64,000 bases of DNA. Origin: Tildeniella torsiva UHER 1998/13D. GTDB taxonomy: Bacteria; Cyanobacteriota; Cyanobacteriia; Phormidesmidales; Phormidesmidaceae. Shown one piece after another: positions 47,068 to 58,636 of this stretch. The notes under the pieces are model-generated. The model did no database searches, was not told where the DNA came from, and saw only the letters and a program-made list of their open reading frames with translations. The translations under genes and the position numbers were made by a program. The DNA lies in the NCBI GenBank assembly GCA_019358835.1, contig JAHHIH010000001.1, forward strand, positions 248,001-312,000, written 5' to 3'. Positions within the stretch are counted from its first letter, which is position 1. Every line of letters begins with the position of its first letter.

Positions 47068-50000
47068 CTACGCCAGCCGCCACTTTTGGCCATGGCTAGC
47101 CTGCAGAAAGGGCACTGCCTTCGCCGCAGGCTGGGGGTAACCAAACAGATAGCCCTGCATTTCGTTACAGCCCAGCTCGTAGAGACACAGGGTCTGATCG
47201 GCAGTTTCGACCCCCTCGGCCACCAGGCTGAGAGAAAGCCCCTTGGCCATGGCAATAATGGCGTTGACCATGGCCTGGTCAACCGGGCTGTGGGGCAGAT
47301 CTTTGACAAAGGCGCGATCGATTTTGATGCCGTCGAGGGGAAACTGCTTCAGATGGCTGAGGCAGGAGTAGCCGGTGCCAAAGTCATCCATCGAGATTTT
47401 GACGCCGAGCTGGCGCAGGTCGCGCAGCCGCTCGATCGAGGCGGACATATCGGCCATGGCTGCCGTTTCGGTAATCTCTAGCTCTAGGTAGGTGGGGGGC
47501 AGGCCGGTTTCGGTGAGCACGGCGGTGACCACATTGACCAGATTGGGGTGCTGGAGCTGTCGGGCCGACAGGTTAACCGCCAGGTTAACCAAAGGAAGCC
47601 CCGCTCGGTGCCAGGCCATCACCTGGGTGCAGGCCGTGCGCATCACCCACTCGCCAATGGGCACAATCAGCCCATTTTCCTCCGCCAGCGGGATAAATTG
47701 ACCCGGAGCGACTAACCCCAGGGTGGGATGCTGCCAGCGCAGCAGGGCCTCCATCTGCACCACTACCCCGGTGACGACATTCACCTGGGGCTGGTAGTAG
47801 AGCACAAATTCGTCGCGGCCCAGGGCGTGGTGCAGCAAGGTTTCGAGCTTGAGGCGCTGGGCGGCCTCGGTGCTAAGGCTCTGGGTGTAGAACTGGTAGT
47901 TGTTGCGGCCCTGCTGCTTGGCCCGGTACATGGCAGCGTCGGCATTTTGTAGCAGGGTGGTCATGTCCTGGCCGTCTTGGGGAAACAGGGCAATGCCAAT
48001 ACTGGCGGTGACGTGCAGCTCGTGGTTTTGCAGCAAAAAGGGTGGCGTGAGCTGGTCGGCAATGCGCCGGGCGACTTTCGCGGCATCGCTGGAGGTGGCC
48101 AGGTTGGGCAAAATCAGGGTAAATTCGTCGCCGCCCCAGCGGGCCACAATGTCTTCGGCCCGCAGGGCGGCGCTGATCCGCTGGGTGACCTGCTGCAACA
48201 GCAGATCGCCCACGGCGTGGCTGAGGGTGTCGTTGATGGTTTTGAAATGGTCGAGGTCTAAGAAAATCACCGCCAGCATCTGCTCATTTTGGCTGGTGCG
48301 GGCGATCGCCTGGGGCAGATGCTGGTCAAAAAAGGCTCGATTGGGCAGCCCGGTGAGGGTGTCGTGGTACACCTGATAGCACATCTGCGCCTCGGTCTGC
48401 TGACGCTTGAGGGCACCCCCTAGGCTGGCGGCGACCGCCACCAAAATCGACTCGTCACTGGCGCTCCACTCCCACTCTTGGTGACAGGCATCGAAGCCGA
48501 TATAGCCCCACAGTTTGGCATCAATAAAAATGGGCACCATCAAAATCGATAGAATGTCGTCTCTGAGCAACACCGCCTGCTCGGCGGGGGGCATGTGGCG
48601 GGTCAGGGCGCAGATCGACTGGCCCTGCTGTAGTAGGGTGTGCCAGCGCTCTAGCCCCAGAGCCCGGTAGCTCTGGTCTTGCCAGTGGGGCTGGTCAATG
48701 CCGGGGGCGGTGGTGGGGGTGGTCCACTCGTAGCGCAGGGTCATGGCCGGTTCCCCCGTGATCGATTGGGGGTGGTGGGTGTAGACGTAGGCGCGATCGG
48801 CGGTGGCCGCTTCCCCCAGGCGGGCCAGCACCTGGGGAATGGCCTGGTGCATGTCGGTGGTGGTGAGCAGACACTGGCTGGCCTCGGCCACCCCTTGCAA
48901 CAGGCGATCGCGCCGCAAAATCGCCGCCTCTCCCCGCTTGCGATCGGTGATATCTTCGACGGTGCCCTCGTAGCCAATCAGCCGGTTGCGATCGTCGTAG
49001 ATCGCCCGCGCCGACTCCGCAATCCAGATCACCGCTCCGTCTTTGCGATACACCTCTGACTCAAACCCTAGGACTGCTCCACCGGCCTGAATTAGATCGG
49101 TAAATTCCTGACGGCGGCCCGGCTGCACGTAGAGCTGCTGGTTAATGTCGGTCAGGGTCTGCATCAAATCCTGGGGCGACTCGTAGCCGTAAAGCCTTGC
49201 CAGCATTGGGTTTACGGTCAGATACTGCCCCTCGGGCGTGCTCTGAAACATGCCCTCCACGGCATTCTCAAACATGCTGCGGTACTTCAGCTCGGCCTGC
49301 TTTAGCGACAGCTCGGTTTGGCGACGCTCCAGGGCGAGGGCCAGATCAGCGGTCACCACCTGGAGGAGATCAACGTCGGCCTCGGCCCAGGGGCGAGGGG
49401 CAATGCAGTTGCTGAACCCCATCACCCCTTGCAGCCGATTTTGCAGGGTTAGGGGCAGCAGCAGAATCGACTTCACACTGCTGGGAGGGTTAGACAGCAT
49501 CTGGCGCTGAAGGTCAGAGAAGTCTGATTCCACCTGATTAATAGGCTGCTGCTGCCGCAGTTGGGCATGCCAATCGGTAAATACGGGGTCTACCGGCAGA
49601 GTCTGAAACCGGGGATCGCCAACGGTGGAGACAATCCCTGGGGCCGACCATTCCACCCGCTGGCGCAGGGAGAGGGGCTCACCCTGCCCCCCTTGCAGCT
49701 CGTAGTAGTAGACCCGACTGGCCCCAGCCAGCTCTCCTAGAGCCGCAAAAATCGCCAAAATCGAGGGTTCTTGCCAATCCCACTGCCAGGCCAGCAGTCG
49801 GCGCTGTATCTCGGCCAGGGTGGACAGGGTCTGTTCTCGCCGCTTGAGGGCCTGCTGGGAGGCAATCTGCGCCGTCACATCTTCAAAGGTGCAGAGCACT
49901 CCCACCACGGTGCCGTCGGCGTCGCGCATGGGCAGGCGGCTACAGTCTACCCAGCCCTGGTGGCCATCGGGATAGGTCTGGGGCTCAATCGCCTGGAGAT

Positions 50001-50802
50001 CGGCAACGCCCTGGGCCATTACCAGGCGATCGCGGGCGGTTCGGTAGGCAGCTTCCTCCACGTTGAGGTAGGGCAGAGCGGTGTCGGTGCCCCCCACAAT
50101 CTCGGCAGGTGACGACAGGCCCATGGCCGTAGCAAAGGCCTGGTTGCAGCCCAGGTAGCGGCCCTGACTATCTTTCCAAAACAGGGGCTGGGGAATGCTG
50201 TCTAGCACCAGCTCCAGCAGGTCTTCCCGCGCTTTGAGAGCCTGCTCCACCTGGCGCAGGGCCGCCTCCGACTGTTTGAGCGGGGTGATGTCGGTAATAA
50301 ACCCTTCAATGCCGCTGATCTGCCCCTGGCTGTCTACAATGGGCGACCCCTTCTCCCACACCCATTTCTCTTCGCCGCTGCGGGTGTGGATGCGGTATTC
50401 GACCTCGTAGGCCTGGCGCAGATCCACAGACTGGCGAATGCTAACCAGCACTCGGGGCAGATCGGCGGCGTGGGTAATGGTGTTGTACGACGTTGGGTAG
50501 TCTGGGCTGAGCAGCTCCTCGGGCTGGTAGCCGGTGAGGGGATGACAGCCCGCGCTGAGGTAGCGCATTGACCAACCCGCATCGCCATCGGCCTGAAACA
50601 CAATGCCCGGCATCACATCGATCAGCCGCTGGGGGGCAGCCGTGCCGGGGGGCAGCGCCAGAAAAGCGCCTCGACAAGTCTCGTTATGGGAAGGGAGCAG
50701 GGTCAGGGTAAGCCAGTACAAGAGGGCATTGTTGGAAGCAGAAAAGCAGGCCGATGCAGGGGCGATTACAGAGTCAATGCGATGGATCTTGGGATCGTGC
50801 AT
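47068..50802 (-). CDS. PAS-PAS-GAF-PAS-GAF-GGDEF-EAL signalling protein
   Basis: A 1244-residue soluble c-di-GMP enzyme candidate. Domains in order (approximate residues): PAS 60-180, PAS 190-315, GAF 325-490, PAS 495-620, GAF 630-805, GGDEF 815-980, EAL 990-1240. The GGDEF site is intact (RWGGDEFTLIL), with an RxxD inhibitory I-site five residues before it (RAED). The EAL domain has MEALLRW, ELEITETAAM, SMDDFGTGYSCLSHL and KIDRAFVKD, so most catalytic residues are present. It may therefore both make and break c-di-GMP. It lies 138 nt downstream of the kinase-like gene that is divergent from kaiABC. Confidence 0.9.
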   Translation of the reverse strand: MHDPKIHRIDSVIAPASACFSASNNALLYWLTLTLLPSHNETCRGAFLALPPGTAAPQRLIDVMPGIVFQADGDAGWSMRYLSAGCHPLTGYQPEELLSPDYPTSYNTITHAADLPRVLVSIRQSVDLRQAYEVEYRIHTRSGEEKWVWEKGSPIVDSQGQISGIEGFITDITPLKQSEAALRQVEQALKAREDLLELVLDSIPQPLFWKDSQGRYLGCNQAFATAMGLSSPAEIVGGTDTALPYLNVEEAAYRTARDRLVMAQGVADLQAIEPQTYPDGHQGWVDCSRLPMRDADGTVVGVLCTFEDVTAQIASQQALKRREQTLSTLAEIQRRLLAWQWDWQEPSILAIFAALGELAGASRVYYYELQGGQGEPLSLRQRVEWSAPGIVSTVGDPRFQTLPVDPVFTDWHAQLRQQQPINQVESDFSDLQRQMLSNPPSSVKSILLLPLTLQNRLQGVMGFSNCIAPRPWAEADVDLLQVVTADLALALERRQTELSLKQAELKYRSMFENAVEGMFQSTPEGQYLTVNPMLARLYGYESPQDLMQTLTDINQQLYVQPGRRQEFTDLIQAGGAVLGFESEVYRKDGAVIWIAESARAIYDDRNRLIGYEGTVEDITDRKRGEAAILRRDRLLQGVAEASQCLLTTTDMHQAIPQVLARLGEAATADRAYVYTHHPQSITGEPAMTLRYEWTTPTTAPGIDQPHWQDQSYRALGLERWHTLLQQGQSICALTRHMPPAEQAVLLRDDILSILMVPIFIDAKLWGYIGFDACHQEWEWSASDESILVAVAASLGGALKRQQTEAQMCYQVYHDTLTGLPNRAFFDQHLPQAIARTSQNEQMLAVIFLDLDHFKTINDTLSHAVGDLLLQQVTQRISAALRAEDIVARWGGDEFTLILPNLATSSDAAKVARRIADQLTPPFLLQNHELHVTASIGIALFPQDGQDMTTLLQNADAAMYRAKQQGRNNYQFYTQSLSTEAAQRLKLETLLHHALGRDEFVLYYQPQVNVVTGVVVQMEALLRWQHPTLGLVAPGQFIPLAEENGLIVPIGEWVMRTACTQVMAWHRAGLPLVNLAVNLSARQLQHPNLVNVVTAVLTETGLPPTYLELEITETAAMADMSASIERLRDLRQLGVKISMDDFGTGYSCLSHLKQFPLDGIKIDRAFVKDLPHSPVDQAMVNAIIAMAKGLSLSLVAEGVETADQTLCLYELGCNEMQGYLFGYPQPAAKAVPFLQASHGQKWRLA

Positions 50803-50940
50803 AGGTCATCGGCGTGGCTTGGCGGTTTCAGTGCCCATGGCAGTGGTCTCAATATGCCCAAAGTGGCCCATAGGAATGATGCTCAACTATACTGCACGGG
50901 CCAATTTTGCCCGGCGGCGGCAAAATTTAGCTAGGTTGGC

Positions 50941-52905
50941 CTAACTTTCGGCGGGGCGCAGGGCGATCGCCCGCATTAAACTCACCACCGCCAGGGCGGG
51001 CGGCTGGGTCAACACCTCTGGGCAAGGGATCAGCGTTAGCCCCAGGGCTACGGCGGCGTCTTCGTTGGCCAGGGGCAATAGGGTGATCAGCGGGAGTTTA
51101 GCCAGGTCGGGCTGGTGGGCAACGTCTTGAAGGTAAGGGATAGACACCGCCTCTGCCCCGTCTAAAATGACTGCCTGGGGCCGCCAAACCCGACTGAGCA
51201 GGCTGGCCTGCTGCAGGTCGTCAACCTGCAACAGGCGGCAGTGGTAGCGCTGGAGCCAGGTGTGCACCAGCGGGGGCAGAGTACTTGGCCCCGCAGCCGC
51301 TGATGGGCGCAGCAGCAGCATGGTCAACGCGTCAGGTGGGGGGCGCGACGGCACCAGGCAAAGTTGGTCTAGGGTGGGCCGTAGCCCCTGGGTCAGGGTT
51401 TCCAGGTACAGGGTCTTGAGCGGCGTTGCCCCAGGATCTACTGACCTTGACCCAGCATCGGCCCCAGGGGCCGATCGCAGCACCACCGCCCCAGGTATCT
51501 CCAGGCGCTGCACGAGAGCCAGCTGGGCCGCCGCATCGACCGGGGCATCGGCTAGGCCTTCCCAGTGAATCAACGTGCAGCGAGGCGCGAGGCGCGTTTG
51601 CATAGCCGCCAGGGCTTGGCCACCGGGGGCCACGGCTAGGCGGTAGGGACTGTCCCGCAGGGCACCGTAGACCTGATCCACGACAGCCTGGCTGGCGCTG
51701 GCCAGTAGTACTAGCACAGTTTCGTTCTCGCCGGGTGGGCCAGGCCGAGGCAGCAGCAGCGTCATGCGGCTGCCCCAGGTGGGGGCGCTCAAACCGCTGA
51801 GTTCGCCCCCCTGGAGCTGGCTAAAGCGACGGGCCAGGGCCAGCCCCAACCCCTCTAGCGACTGGGAGGCAGGCTGAATATCAAGGCCTGGGGCCACCGT
51901 TGGTTCTAGAGGGGGGCCAGGGTTAACGATGAAGCTTGAACTCCACAGCGTCAGGCCTATCCAAGGCCCCCAGGGCTCGATTACCAGGCCGCCGGGCGTA
52001 GCGCCGTGGGCCAGTAGGTAGCCCAAACCATAGTGGAGACTCTGGCGCAAGCGCAGGGGGTCGGCCTGCACCCAGCCCTCTGCGATCGCCAAACCCACCG
52101 TAAATTCCTCGGCCCAGGCCGCTGCGCCACCCTCAGGCTGGGCATTAAAAAAGCCGGGCAGCAGCTCATCGGCCAGGGGCTTGAGGTACACCCGCTGGAG
52201 GCTCAGGCTCAGCTGGCCAGACTCTAGGCGCATCCAGTCGAGCAGCAGATTGATCAGGCCGGTCAGTTTGCGGATGGCCTGCCGCATCAGGCTGACGTAG
52301 CGAAACTGGCGATCGCTCAGCGACCCCACCCGACTGTCGAGCAGCAGGGTCGATAGCCCCAGCAGGGTCGTCATCGGGGTTTTGAGGGCGTGGCTGAGTT
52401 CCAGCACCCAGGCCTGCTGGCCCAAGCCCAGCGGCGGCGCGGCAATATGGCCTGTTTCCAAGGGTTCAGGGACGTTCAGCCAGGCCATCAGCTGAGCGGG
52501 GTTGAGCACCCCTCGGTAGCGACCGTCAGCGCTGGTGCAGACCCAGAGGGCCACGGTTGGCTCCAGGGCCATGGCTCTGAGCCGGGCGCTGGTGGGGCGA
52601 TCGCCCCACTCCCGATCGATCACCGCCACGACGGGCTCTAGCCAAGCCTGGCAGTCAGCCAACCGCAGGCTAGAGGCTTCAGTAGGTACTTCAGGCGCTC
52701 CACCCGGCGGCAAAGCTCCCTGGCTAGCCGCCCACAGTCGCCCGAGGGCGATCGCGCCCAGCGGGTGCTGCTCCCCATCGACAACCACAATGTGGCTGGG
52801 GGTCACGGCTAGCTGCCCTAGGGCCAGGGCGATGCGCTCCAGGGGAGTCGTCAAACCGTAGGCCGGAACAGGGCTCAGAACAGAGTCGAGGGGCGGCAGC
52901 GCCAT
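50941..52905 (-). CDS. Degenerate sensor histidine kinase-like protein with receiver-like C-terminus
   Basis: A 654-residue protein. Residues 1-150 include a CBS-like region (PSHIVVVDGEQHPLGAIAL). A HisKA helix with the phospho-acceptor His follows (ELSHALKTPMTTLLGLSTLL, His about residue 172). The ATPase-like domain lacks a recognisable N-box Asn (LRQSLHYGLGYLL at that place) and a D-box, but keeps a G-box (GLGLALARRF). The C-terminal part (about 390-654) looks like two degenerate receiver domains. Kinase activity is doubtful. I chose the ATG at 52905, since an upstream frame to 53061 would overlap kaiA. It is divergent from kaiA and probably co-transcribed with the GGDEF/EAL gene. Confidence 0.7.
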   Translation of the reverse strand: MALPPLDSVLSPVPAYGLTTPLERIALALGQLAVTPSHIVVVDGEQHPLGAIALGRLWAASQGALPPGGAPEVPTEASSLRLADCQAWLEPVVAVIDREWGDRPTSARLRAMALEPTVALWVCTSADGRYRGVLNPAQLMAWLNVPEPLETGHIAAPPLGLGQQAWVLELSHALKTPMTTLLGLSTLLLDSRVGSLSDRQFRYVSLMRQAIRKLTGLINLLLDWMRLESGQLSLSLQRVYLKPLADELLPGFFNAQPEGGAAAWAEEFTVGLAIAEGWVQADPLRLRQSLHYGLGYLLAHGATPGGLVIEPWGPWIGLTLWSSSFIVNPGPPLEPTVAPGLDIQPASQSLEGLGLALARRFSQLQGGELSGLSAPTWGSRMTLLLPRPGPPGENETVLVLLASASQAVVDQVYGALRDSPYRLAVAPGGQALAAMQTRLAPRCTLIHWEGLADAPVDAAAQLALVQRLEIPGAVVLRSAPGADAGSRSVDPGATPLKTLYLETLTQGLRPTLDQLCLVPSRPPPDALTMLLLRPSAAAGPSTLPPLVHTWLQRYHCRLLQVDDLQQASLLSRVWRPQAVILDGAEAVSIPYLQDVAHQPDLAKLPLITLLPLANEDAAVALGLTLIPCPEVLTQPPALAVVSLMRAIALRPAES

Positions 52906-52986
52906 GGGCTTATTCCCCAAGGGGTTTGCTTCCAGGTTTAGGGGGCAGGCTGTATTCTGGCAACCACCCTTTACAATTGACAATAT

Positions 52987-53007
52987 CCTGACATCCCCTA
53001 GGTCAGG
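52987..53007. promoter_or_regulatory. Dyad in the kinase-kaiA divergent promoter region
   Basis: CCTGAC (52987-52992) and GTCAGG (53002-53007) form a perfect 6-bp dyad with a 9-bp spacer, 20 nt before the kaiA ATG. It could bind a regulator of kaiA or of the divergent gene. No known consensus was matched. Confidence 0.3.
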
Positions 53008-53026
53008 GTAGTGCGTTCTGGCCCAG

Positions 53027-53983
53027 ATGGGTTCTAGCTGTTGTGCTCTGAACATTGTCACGGCGTTTTCCTGTCCCGCTCATCCCTGTCGCCCCTTGGT
53101 TGCTCCCCTTCAGATTTTTATCCTCACCCATGGTGATCAGGTTAAGCAGGGTCCCGAACTAAATCTGGATCCTAGCCGCTATGTGGTGCACCAAACGGCT
53201 GTGCTCGGCGACGTCCTAGACTGGTTGCAGAGTCGCCCCGATCTGCCCGACTGCCTGGTGGTCGATGACACGGGTTGGCTCCAAGAGCTGCGTCCAGCCC
53301 TGATGCAGCTCGGGCTGATGCTGCCGGTGGTGGTGCTGATCGAGCAACCCAACCCGACCCCTGACGAAGCGCTGAAGACCAATGCGGTGCCCCTAACTGG
53401 GGCCGAGTCTTACCCTGGAGCCGTCGTGCACCGCGCTACGGATGCTTTGCCCCAGCTTGACCGGGTGATTCAGAACGCCATTCAGGAGTTTTTGCGGCTG
53501 CCCAACCTCAAGGCCACGTCGCCCACTGCCCCTGCGGTGGATCAGCCTAACGCCCTCTCCGACAGCTTGAGCGCTCAACAACATCGCCTGATAGAAAAAC
53601 TTAAAGCCCGGTTAGGATACCTAGGAGTCTATTACAAACGCAGCCCCAGCTCTTTTTTGCGCCATATGAGCCCCGATGACCGCGCCGCGTTTTTGGGCCA
53701 GCTCAAGACCGATTACCGCACCATTATCCTGGGCTATTTTGCCAAAGATGCCAAAATCAACCTCAACCAGCTAATCGACGACTTTGTCGATCAGGCGTTC
53801 ATGGCCGATATTTCCGTCGCTCAAATCGTTGAAATTCATATGGAGCTGATGGATGGCTTCTCAAAACAGCTCAAGCTAGAAGGGCGTAGCGAAGAGATTT
53901 TGCTCGACTACCGCCTCACCCTGATCGATGTCATTGCCCATCTGTGCGAAATGTACCGGCGATCGATTCCCCGTGAGCCCTAG
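53027..53983 (+). CDS. kaiA: Circadian clock protein KaiA
   Basis: A 318-residue full-length KaiA. The N-terminal pseudo-receiver domain (about residues 28-155) is divergent and lacks an obvious phospho-acceptor Asp site. The C-terminal domain (about 195-318) is strongly conserved: GYLGVYYKRSPSSFLRHM, VVEIHMELMDGF-like VEIHMELMDGFSKQL, and LDYRLTLIDVIAHLCEMYRR. KaiA binds the KaiC A-loops and stimulates autophosphorylation. The ATG at 53027 is the only plausible in-frame ATG; it gives about 30 residues more than the Synechococcus protein before the receiver fold begins. Confidence 0.95.
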   Translation: MGSSCCALNIVTAFSCPAHPCRPLVAPLQIFILTHGDQVKQGPELNLDPSRYVVHQTAVLGDVLDWLQSRPDLPDCLVVDDTGWLQELRPALMQLGLMLPVVVLIEQPNPTPDEALKTNAVPLTGAESYPGAVVHRATDALPQLDRVIQNAIQEFLRLPNLKATSPTAPAVDQPNALSDSLSAQQHRLIEKLKARLGYLGVYYKRSPSSFLRHMSPDDRAAFLGQLKTDYRTIILGYFAKDAKINLNQLIDDFVDQAFMADISVAQIVEIHMELMDGFSKQLKLEGRSEEILLDYRLTLIDVIAHLCEMYRRSIPREP

Positions 53984-54046
53984 GGCTACTCGAACCAAAA
54001 CTACCGATACAATCATGCTTGTCCCTGTTCCAGCCCAGAGGGTTCT

Positions 54047-54361
54047 ATGAGCTCGATCAAAAAGACCTACATCCTTAAGCTTTACGTTGCGGGCAATACC
54101 CCCAACTCGATTCGCGCCCTGAAGACCCTCAACAATATTCTTGAAGAAGAATTTCAGGGCGTCTACGCCCTCAAGGTGATCGACGTGCTCAAAAACCCTC
54201 AGCTGGCGGAGGAAGACAAGATTTTGGCCACCCCCACCCTGGCCAAAATTTTGCCGCCTCCGGTGCGCAAAATTATTGGCGACCTGTCTGACCGCGAGCG
54301 CGTGCTGATTGGCCTCGACCTGCTCTACGATGAGCTGCGCGAAGACGACATCTACGGCTAG
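54047..54361 (+). CDS. kaiB: Circadian clock protein KaiB
   Basis: A 104-residue KaiB of usual length. The N-terminal half [20 protein letters not shown] and [20 protein letters not shown], and the C-terminal [20 protein letters not shown] are family hallmarks. KaiB switches fold to bind the KaiC CI ring at night and sequesters KaiA. GAGGG about 5 nt upstream supports the ATG. It follows kaiA by 63 nt and precedes kaiC by 168 nt. Confidence 0.97.
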
Positions 54362-54529
54362 CGGCGCCGCCATCATTGAGCAAGGCCCCAATGGCTGGCA
54401 AGGGACACCTAACGTCTGGGGAAAGCTGGCTTCAGTCCTCTAGGGCAGTCGGTTCGGGGTATGCTTAATCCTCAGGATTTCCTGTAGTTTATTAAGGGCG
54501 GCACGCTGCCCACGACCTAGCGATCTCCC

Positions 54530-56086
54530 ATGACAGATTCTGACCAAACCGATTTGCAGCCATCCTCCCACCCTCCGGGCGTGCGTAAAATTCGCACTCT
54601 CATTGAAGGTTTCGATGATATCAGCCACGGGGGCATGCCGGCAGGGCGATCGACCCTGGTAAGCGGCACCTCGGGTACCGGTAAGACCCTGTTCGCGGTG
54701 CAGTTCATCTACAACGGCATCACGGAGTTTGACGAGCCAGGGATATTTGTCACCTTTGAAGAATCTCCGGAAGACATTATTCAAAACGCCTACAGCTTTG
54801 GCTGGGACTTGCAGCGCCTGGTGGACGACGGCAAGCTGTTTATCCTCGACGCTTCGCCGGACCCCGAGGGGCAGGATGTGGTGGGCAACTTTGACCTGTC
54901 GGCGCTGATCGAGCGGATTCAGTACGCCATTCGCAAGTACAAGGCGCGGCGGGTCTCGATTGACTCGGTGACGGCGGTGTTTCAGCAGTATGACGCTGCC
55001 TCGGTGGTGCGGCGAGAGATCTTTCGCCTGGTAGCTCGCCTGAAGCTGATGGGGGTAACCACGGTGATGACCACCGAGCGCCTGGATGAGTATGGCCCCG
55101 TAGCCCGCTTTGGGGTCGAGGAGTTTGTCTCTGACAACGTGGTGATTGTGCGCAACGCCCTGGAGGGGGAGCGCCGCCGCCGCACCATTGAGATTCTTAA
55201 GCTGCGGGGCACCACCCACATGAAAGGGGAGTATCCGTTTACCATCACCAACGACGGCATCAATATCTTCCCGCTGGGGGCGATGCAGCTGACCCAGCGA
55301 TCGTCCAACGCGCGGGTGTCGTCGGGGGTGCCGACGCTGGACGAAATGTGCGGCGGTGGCTTCTTCAAAGATTCGATCATTCTGGCCACTGGGGCCACGG
55401 GCACGGGCAAAACTCTGCTGGTCAGCAAGTTTTTGGTGGATGGCTGCAAGAGCGGCGAGCGGGCGATTTTGTTTGCCTACGAAGAGTCTCGTGCCCAGCT
55501 CTCCCGCAACGCCTACTCCTGGGGCGTTGACTTTGAGGCGATGGAGGAGCAGGGGCTGCTGAAGATTATCTGCGCCTACCCTGAGTCGGCGGGTTTGGAA
55601 GACCACCTGCAAATTATCAAAACCGAGATCTCGCAGTTTAAGCCGTCGCGGGTGGCGATCGACTCGCTGTCGGCGCTGGATCGCGGCGTCAGCAACAACT
55701 CTTTTCGCCAGTTTGTGATTGGGGTGACGGGCTTTGCCAAACAAGAAGAAATCACCGGCTTCTTCACCAACACCACTGAGCAATTTATGGGGCTGCACTC
55801 GATTACCGAGTCGCACATTTCGACTATTACCGACACGATTTTGATGCTGCAATACGTGGAGGTGCGGGGCGAGCTGTCGCGGGCGATCAACGTGTTTAAG
55901 ATGCGCGGTTCGTGGCACGACAAGGGCATTCGCGAGTACACCATCAATAGCCAGGGGCCAGATATTAAAGACTCTTTCCGCAACCTGGAGCGGATTATCA
56001 GCGGCTCACCCACTCGGATTGCGGTCGATGAAAAGAGCGAGCTATCGCGGATTATTCAGGGGGTGCAGGGGGATTCTGAGTTATAG
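54530..56086 (+). CDS. kaiC: Circadian clock ATPase/kinase KaiC
   Basis: A 518-residue double RecA-fold protein. The CI P-loop is GTSGTGKT at 46-53 with the catalytic Glu pair E77-E78; the CII P-loop is GATGTGKT at 288-295 with E318-E319. The phosphorylation sites S431, T432 and the phosphotransfer residue T426 are all at the Synechococcus positions. The C-terminal A-loop region (GSPTRIAVDEKSELSRII) is intact. KaiC is therefore expected to be a fully functional clock oscillator with its KaiA and KaiB neighbours. No clear Shine-Dalgarno precedes the ATG. Confidence 0.98.
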   Translation: MTDSDQTDLQPSSHPPGVRKIRTLIEGFDDISHGGMPAGRSTLVSGTSGTGKTLFAVQFIYNGITEFDEPGIFVTFEESPEDIIQNAYSFGWDLQRLVDDGKLFILDASPDPEGQDVVGNFDLSALIERIQYAIRKYKARRVSIDSVTAVFQQYDAASVVRREIFRLVARLKLMGVTTVMTTERLDEYGPVARFGVEEFVSDNVVIVRNALEGERRRRTIEILKLRGTTHMKGEYPFTITNDGINIFPLGAMQLTQRSSNARVSSGVPTLDEMCGGGFFKDSIILATGATGTGKTLLVSKFLVDGCKSGERAILFAYEESRAQLSRNAYSWGVDFEAMEEQGLLKIICAYPESAGLEDHLQIIKTEISQFKPSRVAIDSLSALDRGVSNNSFRQFVIGVTGFAKQEEITGFFTNTTEQFMGLHSITESHISTITDTILMLQYVEVRGELSRAINVFKMRGSWHDKGIREYTINSQGPDIKDSFRNLERIISGSPTRIAVDEKSELSRIIQGVQGDSEL

Positions 56087-56261: not shown

Positions 56262-56546
56262 TCAGTACACCTCGTCGTGTGAGCCGAGATTGAGTAACAG
56301 GATGGCTTGTTCATCCATCTCTGGATCGTCTACAAATTCAAATAAAATGCGGAGTTTGTAGTCGATTGAGCATGACCACACATCTTCTAAGCTTCCAGAG
56401 AGCTTGTGGGTTCGCAACGATGGCTCAAATGGGTCTCGAACTAACAGCTCTAGGGTTTGTCGGATGGTCTGCTTGAGTTGAGGGTTCCGCTTGACCAAGC
56501 GTTTGAAGGCGCGTTGCGATTTTGGTGTCCAGGCGAGGCGTCTCAA
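56262..56546 (-). CDS. RelE/YafQ-type toxin
   Basis: A 94-residue RelE/ParE-superfamily toxin. It begins RRLAWTPKSQRAFKRLVKRN and carries the basic-helix and C-terminal strand pattern DYKLRILFEFVDDP and LLLNLGSHDEVY typical of the YafQ/RelE branch, with a His and an acidic residue at the end as candidate catalytic residues. It would cleave mRNA on the ribosome. Its start overlaps the antitoxin stop by 4 nt. Confidence 0.85.
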   Translation of the reverse strand: MRRLAWTPKSQRAFKRLVKRNPQLKQTIRQTLELLVRDPFEPSLRTHKLSGSLEDVWSCSIDYKLRILFEFVDDPEMDEQAILLLNLGSHDEVY

Positions 56547-56773
56547 TCGTCTAGACCTGCCATGAACTCGTCAACTGAACCGAACTGGACGTTGCCTTGA
56601 GCAAATTCGTGGCGAGCTTCGGCAATGCTCTGACTGAGTTCTTGGCGGCGCTGGTCTGCGATGCGTTTTTGCAACAGGGTGAGCACAGCCTCTTGATCTT
56701 GAAGGGAAAGGGACTCGACCGCATCAATGGCTTTTTGAAAGGCTGAGATCGGTTCAGGCATAGATTTTGGCAT
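56543..56773 (-). CDS. Cognate antitoxin of RelE-type toxin
   Basis: A 76-residue protein with a helical N-terminal part (FQKAIDAVESLSLQDQEAVL, TLLQKRIADQRRQ) and an acidic flexible C-terminus (FGSVDEFMAGLDD). The latter would wrap the toxin. Placement directly upstream of, and overlapping, the toxin gene is typical of a type II pair. The ATG at 56773 or the one at 56761 is the likely start; longer frames reach 56800. Confidence 0.78.
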   Translation of the reverse strand: MPKSMPEPISAFQKAIDAVESLSLQDQEAVLTLLQKRIADQRRQELSQSIAEARHEFAQGNVQFGSVDEFMAGLDD

Positions 56774-56903
56774 ATACGCTGGATGGGTTGATCGTAGCAC
56801 TGGCAGGAGTTGTGGTGCGGTAGCGAGCAGAGGTAGCCCGAAAACGGGATGGGCGGGCTATAACTGAGGCGGTAGACGGGTTTTGCAGGGTAAGGGCACA
56901 GCG

Positions 56904-57008
56904 ATGGCACGGGATGCGGCATACCGGATAGCAGAAGAGTGGATTGAAGCAGCACTGAAGGAAGAGATTATTGAAATCGAAACAGGAAAGCAATATCGCT
57001 CAGCGTAG
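56904..57008 (+). pseudogene. 34-codon ORF resembling the N-terminus of leucine-rich-repeat proteins
   Basis: The frame ARDAAYRIAEEWIEAALKEE, then IIEIETGKQYRSA, resembles the helical N-terminal segment that precedes leucine-rich repeats in many cyanobacterial proteins (typically 'RDEAYQKAEEKIEEAL'). Here it stops after 34 residues, so it is probably a remnant. It could also be a tiny real gene. It ends 44 nt before the ApeA-type gene. Confidence 0.35.
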
Positions 57009-57052
57009 TTGCCAAAATATTGTTGGATTACATTATTTTCGGAGATCAAGAC

Positions 57053-58636
57053 ATGAGTGGGTTTGAAAAAGATGGTTATTGGTTCTTACCAGAAAAGCCA
57101 GACAGAGAAGTCTTTGGCAGGCTAATTTTCTATCCCGAAAAAGCCCCGAAACTGCTGCTTTCAAATACGCTTGAGGAATCGAAAAGTATCGAGCAGATTG
57201 CAAACGGCAATAGCTTTGAGGTGCTCAACGGATATTTCTTAGATGGGAAAGAAGTCACACTCGTTTACTGTTACCGGAGAGGAGGTTTGAAGACTGGTGT
57301 TCAAACCGCTGAAATATTCGCCAGATACATAATAGTAGGACATCACTTCAAATCTAAGGCCGACATAAAATTTTCAGAGATTTCTGCTAGATATACCTAT
57401 TTAGAGGAGTGGGTGTTATCTTCGAGCTTTGAGATTAGCTGGCAAGCGCAAGATGAAGAATCAAAACATGAGATAACCTTAAAACAGTCAATTGAATCTC
57501 CCAAAGAACTTGGAAGCCTTTCTGGGTTTACAGTTTCCATGCATGACTTGCCGTGGATCCCTGTTGAACATCTAAATCTCTTCAGATTCCTGGGGGAAAT
57601 TCCCACCAAATTATCTGTAGAAGAGAAGAAATCAATACTATTCAAATCGGATGCTGAGAAACCCTTTGAAGACTTCATTGACGCACTCATTCTTTTCCAA
57701 GATCTCCTAATATTCTGCACTGGAGAAATGATAAATATATACGATGTCATTTCATTTCCTTTTGTCAGAAAAAAGAAGATTAGAATCCCTAAATCCATAG
57801 AAATTGCAATGAGACTAGGTGCAATCGAGCCAGAAAACACCGTTGTCAGCAAATCTGGTTTTGCTGTAAAAAGCTATGGGGAGCGATATAAAGCTGTTGA
57901 GGAGGAGGTGCTAGAGCCAGAATTAATTCAGATCTATTTTTCGACAGGAGCAGCACAAAATGAAAAACAAAAACTTAATAGAGTCAAGGCACTACTCATG
58001 TTTCACGAAATTAAAGAAAAGATGCCATATGTCTTGACAAACTGGGAGTTAAACAAGCAAGAGGTAGGCTCAATTTTTGACTTATATTTACGCTTGACGT
58101 ACATTCCCGAAAGGCACGCAGATGACTTATTTTTGACGATATCACAAGCAATTGAAGCATTTCATAGAGTTTCTCACAAGCAAGATAAATTTGACAGTGA
58201 CATGTTTAACAGTGCTCGCGAAGCGATGATAAAATCAATTCCGAAGCGTCCAACCAAATACGGGTTAAACAATAATGAGGAGTCTGCTGAACTTATAACT
58301 AAGCTCAGGGAATTTATTGAGAGTAAATTACAATATATTAATGAATTCTCTTTAAAGGAGAGACTGGTTGAATTATACAATGAGCACCAAGAATGCTTGC
58401 CTGACGGACTTTTTGAGTTAGGAGAAATAGAAGATTTTAGCAAGCAAGTAAGAGACACAAGAGGCAGTTTAACCCATCTATCTAAATCATCGAGTCAAAA
58501 ACGAAGCAAACACATTATTCCTCGTGAGGAACGCAGAGAATTAATAAGGAAGTTATTAGTCCTTCTTCAAGCATGCTTGATCAAAAAAATTGGCCTTGAT
58601 GATGCTCAGGTAAAGGCAGTTCTTTCTAGAAGATAA
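57053..58636 (+). CDS. ApeA-type HEPN anti-phage protein
   Basis: A 527-residue protein with very A+T-rich codon use. The N-terminal part (FEKDGYWFLPEKPDREVFGR, LIFYPEKAPKLLLSNTLEES) matches the ApeA N-terminal domain. The C-terminal part (about residues 330-520) is helical and holds an RX4H HEPN ribonuclease motif (R470-GSLT-H475, in DTRGSLTHLS). ApeA is a single-gene abortive-infection system shown to restrict phage in E. coli; its HEPN domain is thought to cleave RNA. The role here is inferred from family. The ATG at 57053 has GGAG 8 nt upstream. There is no partner gene adjacent. Confidence 0.78.
   Translation: MSGFEKDGYWFLPEKPDREVFGRLIFYPEKAPKLLLSNTLEESKSIEQIANGNSFEVLNGYFLDGKEVTLVYCYRRGGLKTGVQTAEIFARYIIVGHHFKSKADIKFSEISARYTYLEEWVLSSSFEISWQAQDEESKHEITLKQSIESPKELGSLSGFTVSMHDLPWIPVEHLNLFRFLGEIPTKLSVEEKKSILFKSDAEKPFEDFIDALILFQDLLIFCTGEMINIYDVISFPFVRKKKIRIPKSIEIAMRLGAIEPENTVVSKSGFAVKSYGERYKAVEEEVLEPELIQIYFSTGAAQNEKQKLNRVKALLMFHEIKEKMPYVLTNWELNKQEVGSIFDLYLRLTYIPERHADDLFLTISQAIEAFHRVSHKQDKFDSDMFNSAREAMIKSIPKRPTKYGLNNNEESAELITKLREFIESKLQYINEFSLKERLVELYNEHQECLPDGLFELGEIEDFSKQVRDTRGSLTHLSKSSSQKRSKHIIPREERRELIRKLLVLLQACLIKKIGLDDAQVKAVLSRR

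Follow-up and report, generated by a model that had tools for sequence, protein, structure and literature searches.

A hybrid histidine-kinase-like gene divergent from kaiA in Tildeniella torsiva and other cyanobacteria, here degenerate and with a GGDEF/EAL neighbour that apparently joined later

Proteins that carry signals into or out of the cyanobacterial clock are known mainly from Synechococcus elongatus. In that organism, a 2026 report describes shifts in period, phase and amplitude upon a change in cyclic di-GMP (c-di-GMP), with the factors involved left unidentified and the Kai proteins not consistently affected in vitro (PMC13001216). The histidine kinase ShkA binds c-di-GMP through a pseudo-receiver domain (PMC12632262 and PMC7010744) and is activated once the ligand occupies that domain (PMC7010744). 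CikA-like kinases of Nostoc have also been treated, in a paper whose accessible part does not mention a kinase next to kaiA (PMC12691664). Here we analyze the kaiABC locus in a 64,000-nucleotide stretch of DNA (the window) from Tildeniella torsiva UHER 1998/13D (contig JAHHIH010000001.1, positions 248,001 to 312,000). From left to right, window positions 47068-56086 hold a PAS/GAF/GGDEF/EAL gene and a degenerate hybrid histidine kinase gene on the minus strand, followed by kaiA, kaiB, and kaiC on the plus strand. The kinase-like gene, divergent from kaiA, is given the working name HKL (histidine-kinase-like). Among open-licence papers, the part of the literature that was covered, we found no description of a kinase divergent from kaiA, which is no proof of novelty.

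47068..50802, minus strand: PAS/GAF-GGDEF-EAL gene, 1244 residues; GGDEF at ~47899-48369 and EAL at ~47137-47835, by Pfam
50941..52905, minus strand: HKL, 654 residues from ATG 52905, by Pfam, alignments and structure model; kinase boxes degenerate, His kept
53096..53983, plus strand: kaiA, start TTG 53096 backed by conservation; open reading frame (ORF) readable from ATG 53027
54047..54361, plus strand: kaiB, by NCBIfam circ_KaiB
54530..56086, plus strand: kaiC, by NCBIfam circ_KaiC

The kaiABC coding sequence lies within 53027-56086. KaiA matches Pfam KaiA (1.8e-60) and KaiA_N (4.9e-16), KaiB has a circ_KaiB match, and KaiC matches circ_KaiC at 1021 bits. Pfam and NCBIfam searches thereby confirm what an earlier note on this DNA had read from the letters alone, namely a degenerate histidine kinase gene divergent from kaiA and then a PAS/GAF/GGDEF/EAL gene on the same strand. 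The layout is not due to chance, because the same arrangement turns up in other genomes. Among the best 80 of 518 named KaiA loci, the nearest belong to one group of Nodosilinea, Leptolyngbya, and Phormidium strains, for example Nodosilinea sp. FACHB-131, with the KaiA of Nodosilinea nodulosa PCC 7104 ranking lower. In the counts below, "Nodosilinea" stands for the window's genus as called here (Nodosilinea or close kin).

The pairing of HKL with kaiA extends far beyond this genome. Surroundings of kaiA, up to 20 kb, were compared in 100 genomes, of which 60 sample the phylum (mainly one per genus) and 40 the family (19 from the window's genus). An HKL homologue lies divergent beside kaiA at 65 of these 100 loci (phmmer) and at 67 of 80 named loci, the latter being the best 80 of 518 and skewed to relatives. 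A search of 386 genomes across the phylum with the HKL alignment as query found HKL at E 1e-110 or better in 100, a lower bound, since diverged HKL genes beside kaiA at loci L049 and L073 miss the threshold. Counted raw, HKL at this threshold occurs in 99 of the 159 genomes that have KaiA, against 1 of the 227 that do not. For 88 of these 100 genomes, HKL and kaiA diverge on a shared contig within 3.3 kb of each other; another six have no linkage call, the place of kaiA being unlisted (G091, G298, G326) or the contigs different (G097, G123, G207). In the window's family (f1, 57 genomes), 37 HKL orthologues score at least 543 bits and the next kinases reach 341 bits, so that orthologues can be separated from other kinases; two of the 37 (G390, G413) lie on contigs other than that of kaiA. 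The earlier note had proposed comparing gene order around kaiA in related genomes, a neighbourhood confined to this genome being part of its refuting condition, and the neighbourhood proves not to be unique: its distribution indicates that the kaiA-HKL pairing is old and phylum-wide. In Anabaena, the neighbour of kaiA is presumably all2883. That gene is among the predicted cAMP-receptor targets in a study whose available text leaves the kai genes unmentioned (PMC2633013).

What lies beyond HKL varies. Across 44 loci outside Nodosilinea, the next gene is of PMT_2 type in ten and otherwise mixed, with EAL plus GGDEF in one. The PMT_2-type (glycosyltransferase-like) homologues converge on HKL (L035, L036, L040, L041, L072, L074, L079, L085, L086, L088), and several of these ten loci come from one family, giving a recurring PMT-HKL-kaiA order. 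HKL is found neither beside kaiA nor at E 1e-110 in the S. elongatus-like genome G036, whose KaiA lies close to the one in PDB 5n8y. At L050, which we take to be T. vestitus BP-1, HKL is short and degenerate.

In the window protein, Pfam recognizes HisKA (7.3e-10) and scores HATPase_c under its cut-off (0.014). A structure predicted from an alignment of 51 rows (mean pLDDT 86) places a paired-CBS-like N-terminus ahead of DHp helices, a degenerate CA domain, and two receiver folds; by its modelled fold, HKL is a hybrid kinase.

52471..52905, minus strand: N-terminal part, paired CBS-like, residues 1-145, from strand and helix order in the model
52222..52428, minus strand: DHp helices, residues 160-228 with His 172; HisKA match and the lowest ratio of nonsynonymous to synonymous substitution (dN/dS) in the protein
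51736..52203, minus strand: CA domain, residues 235-390, N-box Asn and G1 Asp lost
51346..51726, minus strand: REC1 pseudo-receiver, residues 394-520, from the model
50956..51333, minus strand: REC2, receiver-like, residues 525-650, from the model and a weak profile match to receivers

Pfam gives no CBS match in the window protein. Among seven orthologues scanned, all have HisKA and HATPase_c, four have a receiver match (three above cut-off), and four have a weak CBS match (one above cut-off). The phosphoacceptor Asp of REC1 is missing in 17 of 20 rows, being retained in L033, L049, and L097, and Asn is the majority residue at this position over 36 rows; REC1 thus reads as a pseudo-receiver in most HKL members.

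The phosphoacceptor His is present in all 65 aligned rows, the N-box Asn in 32, and a full set of intact kinase boxes in 30 (the incomplete L110 is omitted from this table, and seven near-copies or short rows are further omitted from the HKL tree). Most of the 30 intact proteins are 800-1220 residues long, and the ORFs called in complete Nodosilinea loci are 629-808. Checked for the ATP-binding N, G1, and G2 boxes, the window protein turns out to have lost the N-box Asn and the G1 Asp, and Ala follows its His; because the His is present and these residues are absent, the protein is described as kinase-like. The other Nodosilinea rows agree, with Ala (once Ser) after the His, neither N-box Asn nor G1 Asp, and Thr or Asn retained at His+4. 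The motif around the His bears on kinase versus phosphatase action in HisKA chemistry. We infer that kinase activity was lost from Nodosilinea HKL and that a phosphatase action is possible. The boxes are broken in several lineages, Nodosilinea among them; on a tree made by a quick method, with several long branches and with partial box loss scored as degenerate, the degenerate state takes five changes, or three if starred branches alone are counted.

Within Nodosilinea HKL, constraint is strongest on the DHp helices. Between the window and six Nodosilinea-type loci, dN/dS estimated by a simple counting method is 0.21-0.34 for HKL overall and, the domains being short, 0.016-0.103 for DHp, 0.17-0.29 for CA, 0.26-0.41 for the CBS-like part, 0.17-0.48 for REC1, and 0.19-0.31 for REC2. 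Corresponding ranges for the neighbours are 0.07-0.13 (GGDEF/EAL gene), 0.11-0.17 (KaiA), and 0.005-0.018 (KaiC). Because dN/dS is low, and lowest in DHp, HKL is maintained by purifying selection that acts on the DHp helices above all.

Comparison of HKL with described kinases reveals likeness in parts. ShkA, a hybrid histidine kinase of Caulobacter, shares with HKL the order DHp, CA, pseudo-receiver, and receiver, and full-length ShkA (6qrj) is the best solved Foldseek match of the HKL model (E 6.6e-14, 520 columns); with a TM-score of 0.25 and a root-mean-square deviation of 25, the likeness holds domain by domain. Unlike ShkA, HKL has a CBS-like N-terminal part, and the kinase boxes are lost in Nodosilinea HKL. 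The contact residues of ShkA were placed provisionally on the HKL alignment: the position of Y338 holds Phe in 23 of 36 rows, that of R344 holds Arg in one of 36 (L048), and the window protein lacks the motif surrounding it. As such, c-di-GMP gating of the ShkA type is not borne out at the level of residues. CikA, too, is a histidine kinase that carries a pseudo-receiver. In a search with the REC1 profile, 2j48 (the CikA pseudo-receiver) scores 5.3e-8 and ranks 40th of 161, after ordinary receivers; for the pseudo-receivers of CikA and KaiA the signal was no higher than for ordinary receivers, which gives no sign of a special kinship. Unlike in CikA, a GAF domain was not found by Pfam in the window protein or its seven orthologues. 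SasA is a histidine kinase that belongs to the clock; unlike SasA, HKL has no KaiB match in Pfam up to E 1, and a separate 394-residue frame with a KaiB domain (G000:C8:7558) is probably SasA. RetS and DivL, kinase-like proteins that act on other kinases and with which HKL would share its proposed DHp-based action, gave the top VIA-align Z scores against the DHp-CA part (15.5 and 15.4), tied within 1 with ordinary kinases. With many kinases tying, this likeness was rejected as special.

The intergenic region between kaiA and HKL holds a further conserved element. According to the earlier note, kaiA starts 121 bp from the divergent gene, a distance that applies if translation begins at ATG 53027. 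TTG 53096 is conserved in 19 of 19 aligned Nodosilinea-type loci and yields the usual KaiA N-terminus (MVAPLQIFI...), and only 7 of 104 columns are invariant in the stretch just upstream (52992-53095). On these grounds kaiA probably starts at TTG 53096, which makes the divergent gap about 190 bp rather than 121. Within it lies the following element:

52949..52991, no strand assigned: conserved kaiA/HKL intergenic block, 30 of 43 columns invariant in 19 loci

On the side away from the poorly conserved stretch, 9 of 43 flanking columns are invariant; for comparison, 51 positions are invariant in the first 120 bases of kaiA and 16 in the first 99 of HKL. The block alignment left out some near-copies and the divergent Nodosilinea loci L097, L099, L101, L105, and L106, which show 4-6 mismatches to an 18-base core of the block. 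Beside kaiA outside the genus, this core had no convincing match: at least five mismatches on the kaiA strand and, at best, four on the other strand, seen once (L045), both as in shuffled sequence. The block overlaps a promoter-like pair on the minus strand (TTGTCA-18-CAGAAT), which fits a candidate HKL promoter. A general scan carried no weight alone, with five promoter-like sites against 2.3 expected and five terminator-like sites against 7.4. An RpaB/RpaA-type box is not proposed for the window, Nodosilinea loci scoring 11-13 of 16, mostly inside the shuffle range. Repeats resembling TTACAATTNNTTACAATT occur in the kaiA-HKL gap of some lineages and clearly exceed shuffles in some of them only. 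The earlier note suggested that a shared intergenic region could couple the expression of clock genes with c-di-GMP signalling. The conserved block, through which kaiA and HKL may be co-regulated, supports this in part; a general link between c-di-GMP and the clock at this locus is not supported.

The distribution of the GGDEF/EAL gene speaks against such a general link. The 1244-residue protein has strong GGDEF (5.8e-55) and EAL (2.1e-74) matches in addition to PAS and GAF domains. It retains the GGDEF and EAL motifs, an RxxD ahead of GGDEF, DDFGTG, and every further motif sought, and so by its sequence carries the catalytic motifs of both c-di-GMP enzyme domains. The gene comes after HKL in the same orientation at 15 of 16 informative Nodosilinea loci (the exception is L101) and at 1 of 42 others, that one (L113) being from a sister genus; seven of the 65 loci, with less than 2.5 kb beyond HKL, are not in this count. 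It is absent within the 2.25 kb flank of L106, and no homologue was found at 1e-150 in G430 or G435. In nine genomes that belong to the family's other genera, homologues with 50-54% identity occur, either on a contig other than that of kaiA or over 500 kb away from it. In the tree of these proteins the window's genus forms one clade (100/100), with the branching order among that clade, the sister-genus pair, and the clade of other homologues left unsettled, and the KaiC tree joins L113 and L131 to the window's genus at 86/86. A single joining to the locus followed by losses would be the simplest account, and the distribution indicates that the GGDEF/EAL gene reached the kai locus late and locally.

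The gene also has conserved noncoding DNA of its own:

50834..50865, minus strand: conserved noncoding block, ~31 bp upstream of the GGDEF/EAL start, from 16 aligned intergenic regions judged by eye

This block, clear in most of the 16 regions and not in L097 or L099, is possibly the gene's own promoter or leader and suggests a separate transcription start. In close Nodosilinea the left flank is collinear (trpA, DUF3007, ndhL, and more), so that the linkage of the GGDEF/EAL gene there is background; these unrelated genes are equally kept. More distant loci divide. L097, L099, and L113 keep only the GGDEF/EAL-HKL-kai part, the genes further left not being found, and the GGDEF/EAL gene is missing from L101 and L131, a tally of three for a tie with HKL and two or three against. 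A second c-di-GMP neighbour was considered at L071 and rejected, since the match runs through PAS domains and its sequence looks like that of a class III cyclase. The gene in question (L071:11329-14355, genus g59) lies after HKL and appears to encode PAS together with a class III nucleotide cyclase domain; L234:5531-8575 is a probable homologue of it and none was seen in L235. It would be another instance of a cyclic-nucleotide enzyme following HKL, with too few cases to judge.

From these comparisons we propose that HKL is an ancient partner of kaiABC, a soluble hybrid kinase divergent from kaiA over a shared regulatory region. Where its boxes are intact, HKL would probably be an ATP-using sensor kinase on the input or output side of the Kai clock. 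Decay of its ATP-binding part in Nodosilinea and several further lineages would have left a pseudokinase that acts by means of the DHp helices as a bundle. Most likely it would dock on another clock two-component protein or offer it a phosphatase or phosphotransfer surface; SasA, CikA, RpaA, and RpaB are candidate partners. The GGDEF/EAL gene would have joined the locus in the ancestor of Nodosilinea and its sister genus, and its product, controlled by PAS/GAF sensors, would make or degrade c-di-GMP; the gene may also be tied functionally to HKL, as a secondary matter. A clock role of HKL is likely, and the fuller statement, in which HKL is a clock-associated signalling protein acting here as a pseudokinase via DHp and later joined by the GGDEF/EAL gene, has in our judgment about an even chance of being right. 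The kinase-like gene is the more interesting half of the locus than the c-di-GMP gene. Because it stands beside kaiA in many lineages, turned up in a single genome that lacks KaiA, and is missing from the kaiA neighbourhood of an S. elongatus-like genome, HKL is a candidate clock component that the S. elongatus model cannot reveal, and the repeated loss of ATP-binding residues with DHp kept offers a clear test of pseudokinase action.

Several observations weigh against HKL as a clock partner. The KaiABC clock can do without it: 60 of the 159 genomes with KaiA, the S. elongatus-like one included, have no HKL at threshold, although at least two of these (G070 at L049 and G213 at L073) have a diverged copy beside kaiA. 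HKL is unlinked from kaiA, with at least 4 kb of flank on at least one side, in five genomes (G203, G157, G262, G105, G111), and G255 (L237) has HKL with no KaiA match; G255 shares its genus with G157 and G262. The co-occurrence counts are not corrected for relatedness among genomes, and HKL evolves faster than KaiA and KaiC. An HLR1-like repeat reaches a score of at least 14 of 16 in 15 of 65 HKL loci, all outside Nodosilinea, and in 3 of 35 loci without HKL. Finally, divergent neighbours can stay together through a shared promoter without any functional tie. An account built on this last point, in which separation is costly, the GGDEF/EAL gene is a bystander, and nothing links the locus to timekeeping, we consider unlikely yet a serious contender; the frequent lack of HKL at threshold and the background-level linkage of the GGDEF/EAL gene in close Nodosilinea fit it. 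It leaves unexplained why KaiA accompanies HKL in 99 of 100 genomes, the five unlinked ones included, and why the kaiA-HKL linkage persists over much of the phylum as the gene beyond HKL changes. That Nodosilinea HKL is simply on its way to loss is very improbable. Its lost boxes, weak HATPase_c match, and fast evolution point that way, as do the family genera g144 and g153 without an orthologue-level match, the related assembly L150, where HKL is divided between two ORFs (kaiC is split there too), and a stop somewhere inside the matched stretch of several family-search rows. The strongly constrained DHp helices, the full-length ORFs of complete Nodosilinea loci, and the conserved block at the start of HKL argue otherwise.

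A direct c-di-GMP route would have the GGDEF/EAL enzyme set c-di-GMP locally and HKL sense that level with its pseudo-receiver, in the manner of ShkA, and relay it to the clock. Its appeal lies in ShkA being the best Foldseek match and switched on by c-di-GMP (PMC7010744). The earlier note knew of no c-di-GMP gene established as directly linked to kai; the 2026 report describes an effect of c-di-GMP on the S. elongatus clock (PMC13001216), and the GGDEF/EAL-HKL pair is retained at three loci whose genes further left were not found. We nevertheless regard this route as improbable: an Arg at the R344 position is rare in the alignment and the motif around it lost from the window protein, activation of a kinase is implausible without ATP-binding residues, the pair is not present at L101 and L131, the clock effect comes from S. 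elongatus, of which a near relative has no HKL beside kaiA, and the enzyme is one of many in a genome with 28 EAL matches. Bolder still, and slightly more doubtful, is the idea that HKL is an overlooked clock accessory lost in the S. elongatus lineage and that the Nodosilinea c-di-GMP enzyme signals through it, so that the locus would supply one of the missing factors by which circadian time responds to c-di-GMP. The Nodosilinea locus nonetheless offers a concrete place to seek the unidentified factors between c-di-GMP and the clock.

Just past kaiC (56262-58636) are two small ORFs that by eye resemble a RelE-type toxin-antitoxin pair, together with a protein that Pfam assigns to ApeA/HEPN. 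A single ORF to the right of kaiC has a match, in 1 of 21 loci compared, so that kaiC marks a break in synteny. An extra KaiB domain occurs in a 292-residue open frame (G000:C2:34813-35052, L214), distinct from both KaiB and the 394-residue frame. At L101 (G430) and L148 (Cyanobacteria bacterium REEB459), kaiC lies apart from kaiAB, beyond HKL and convergent with it, and ends 2 bp from the HKL end.

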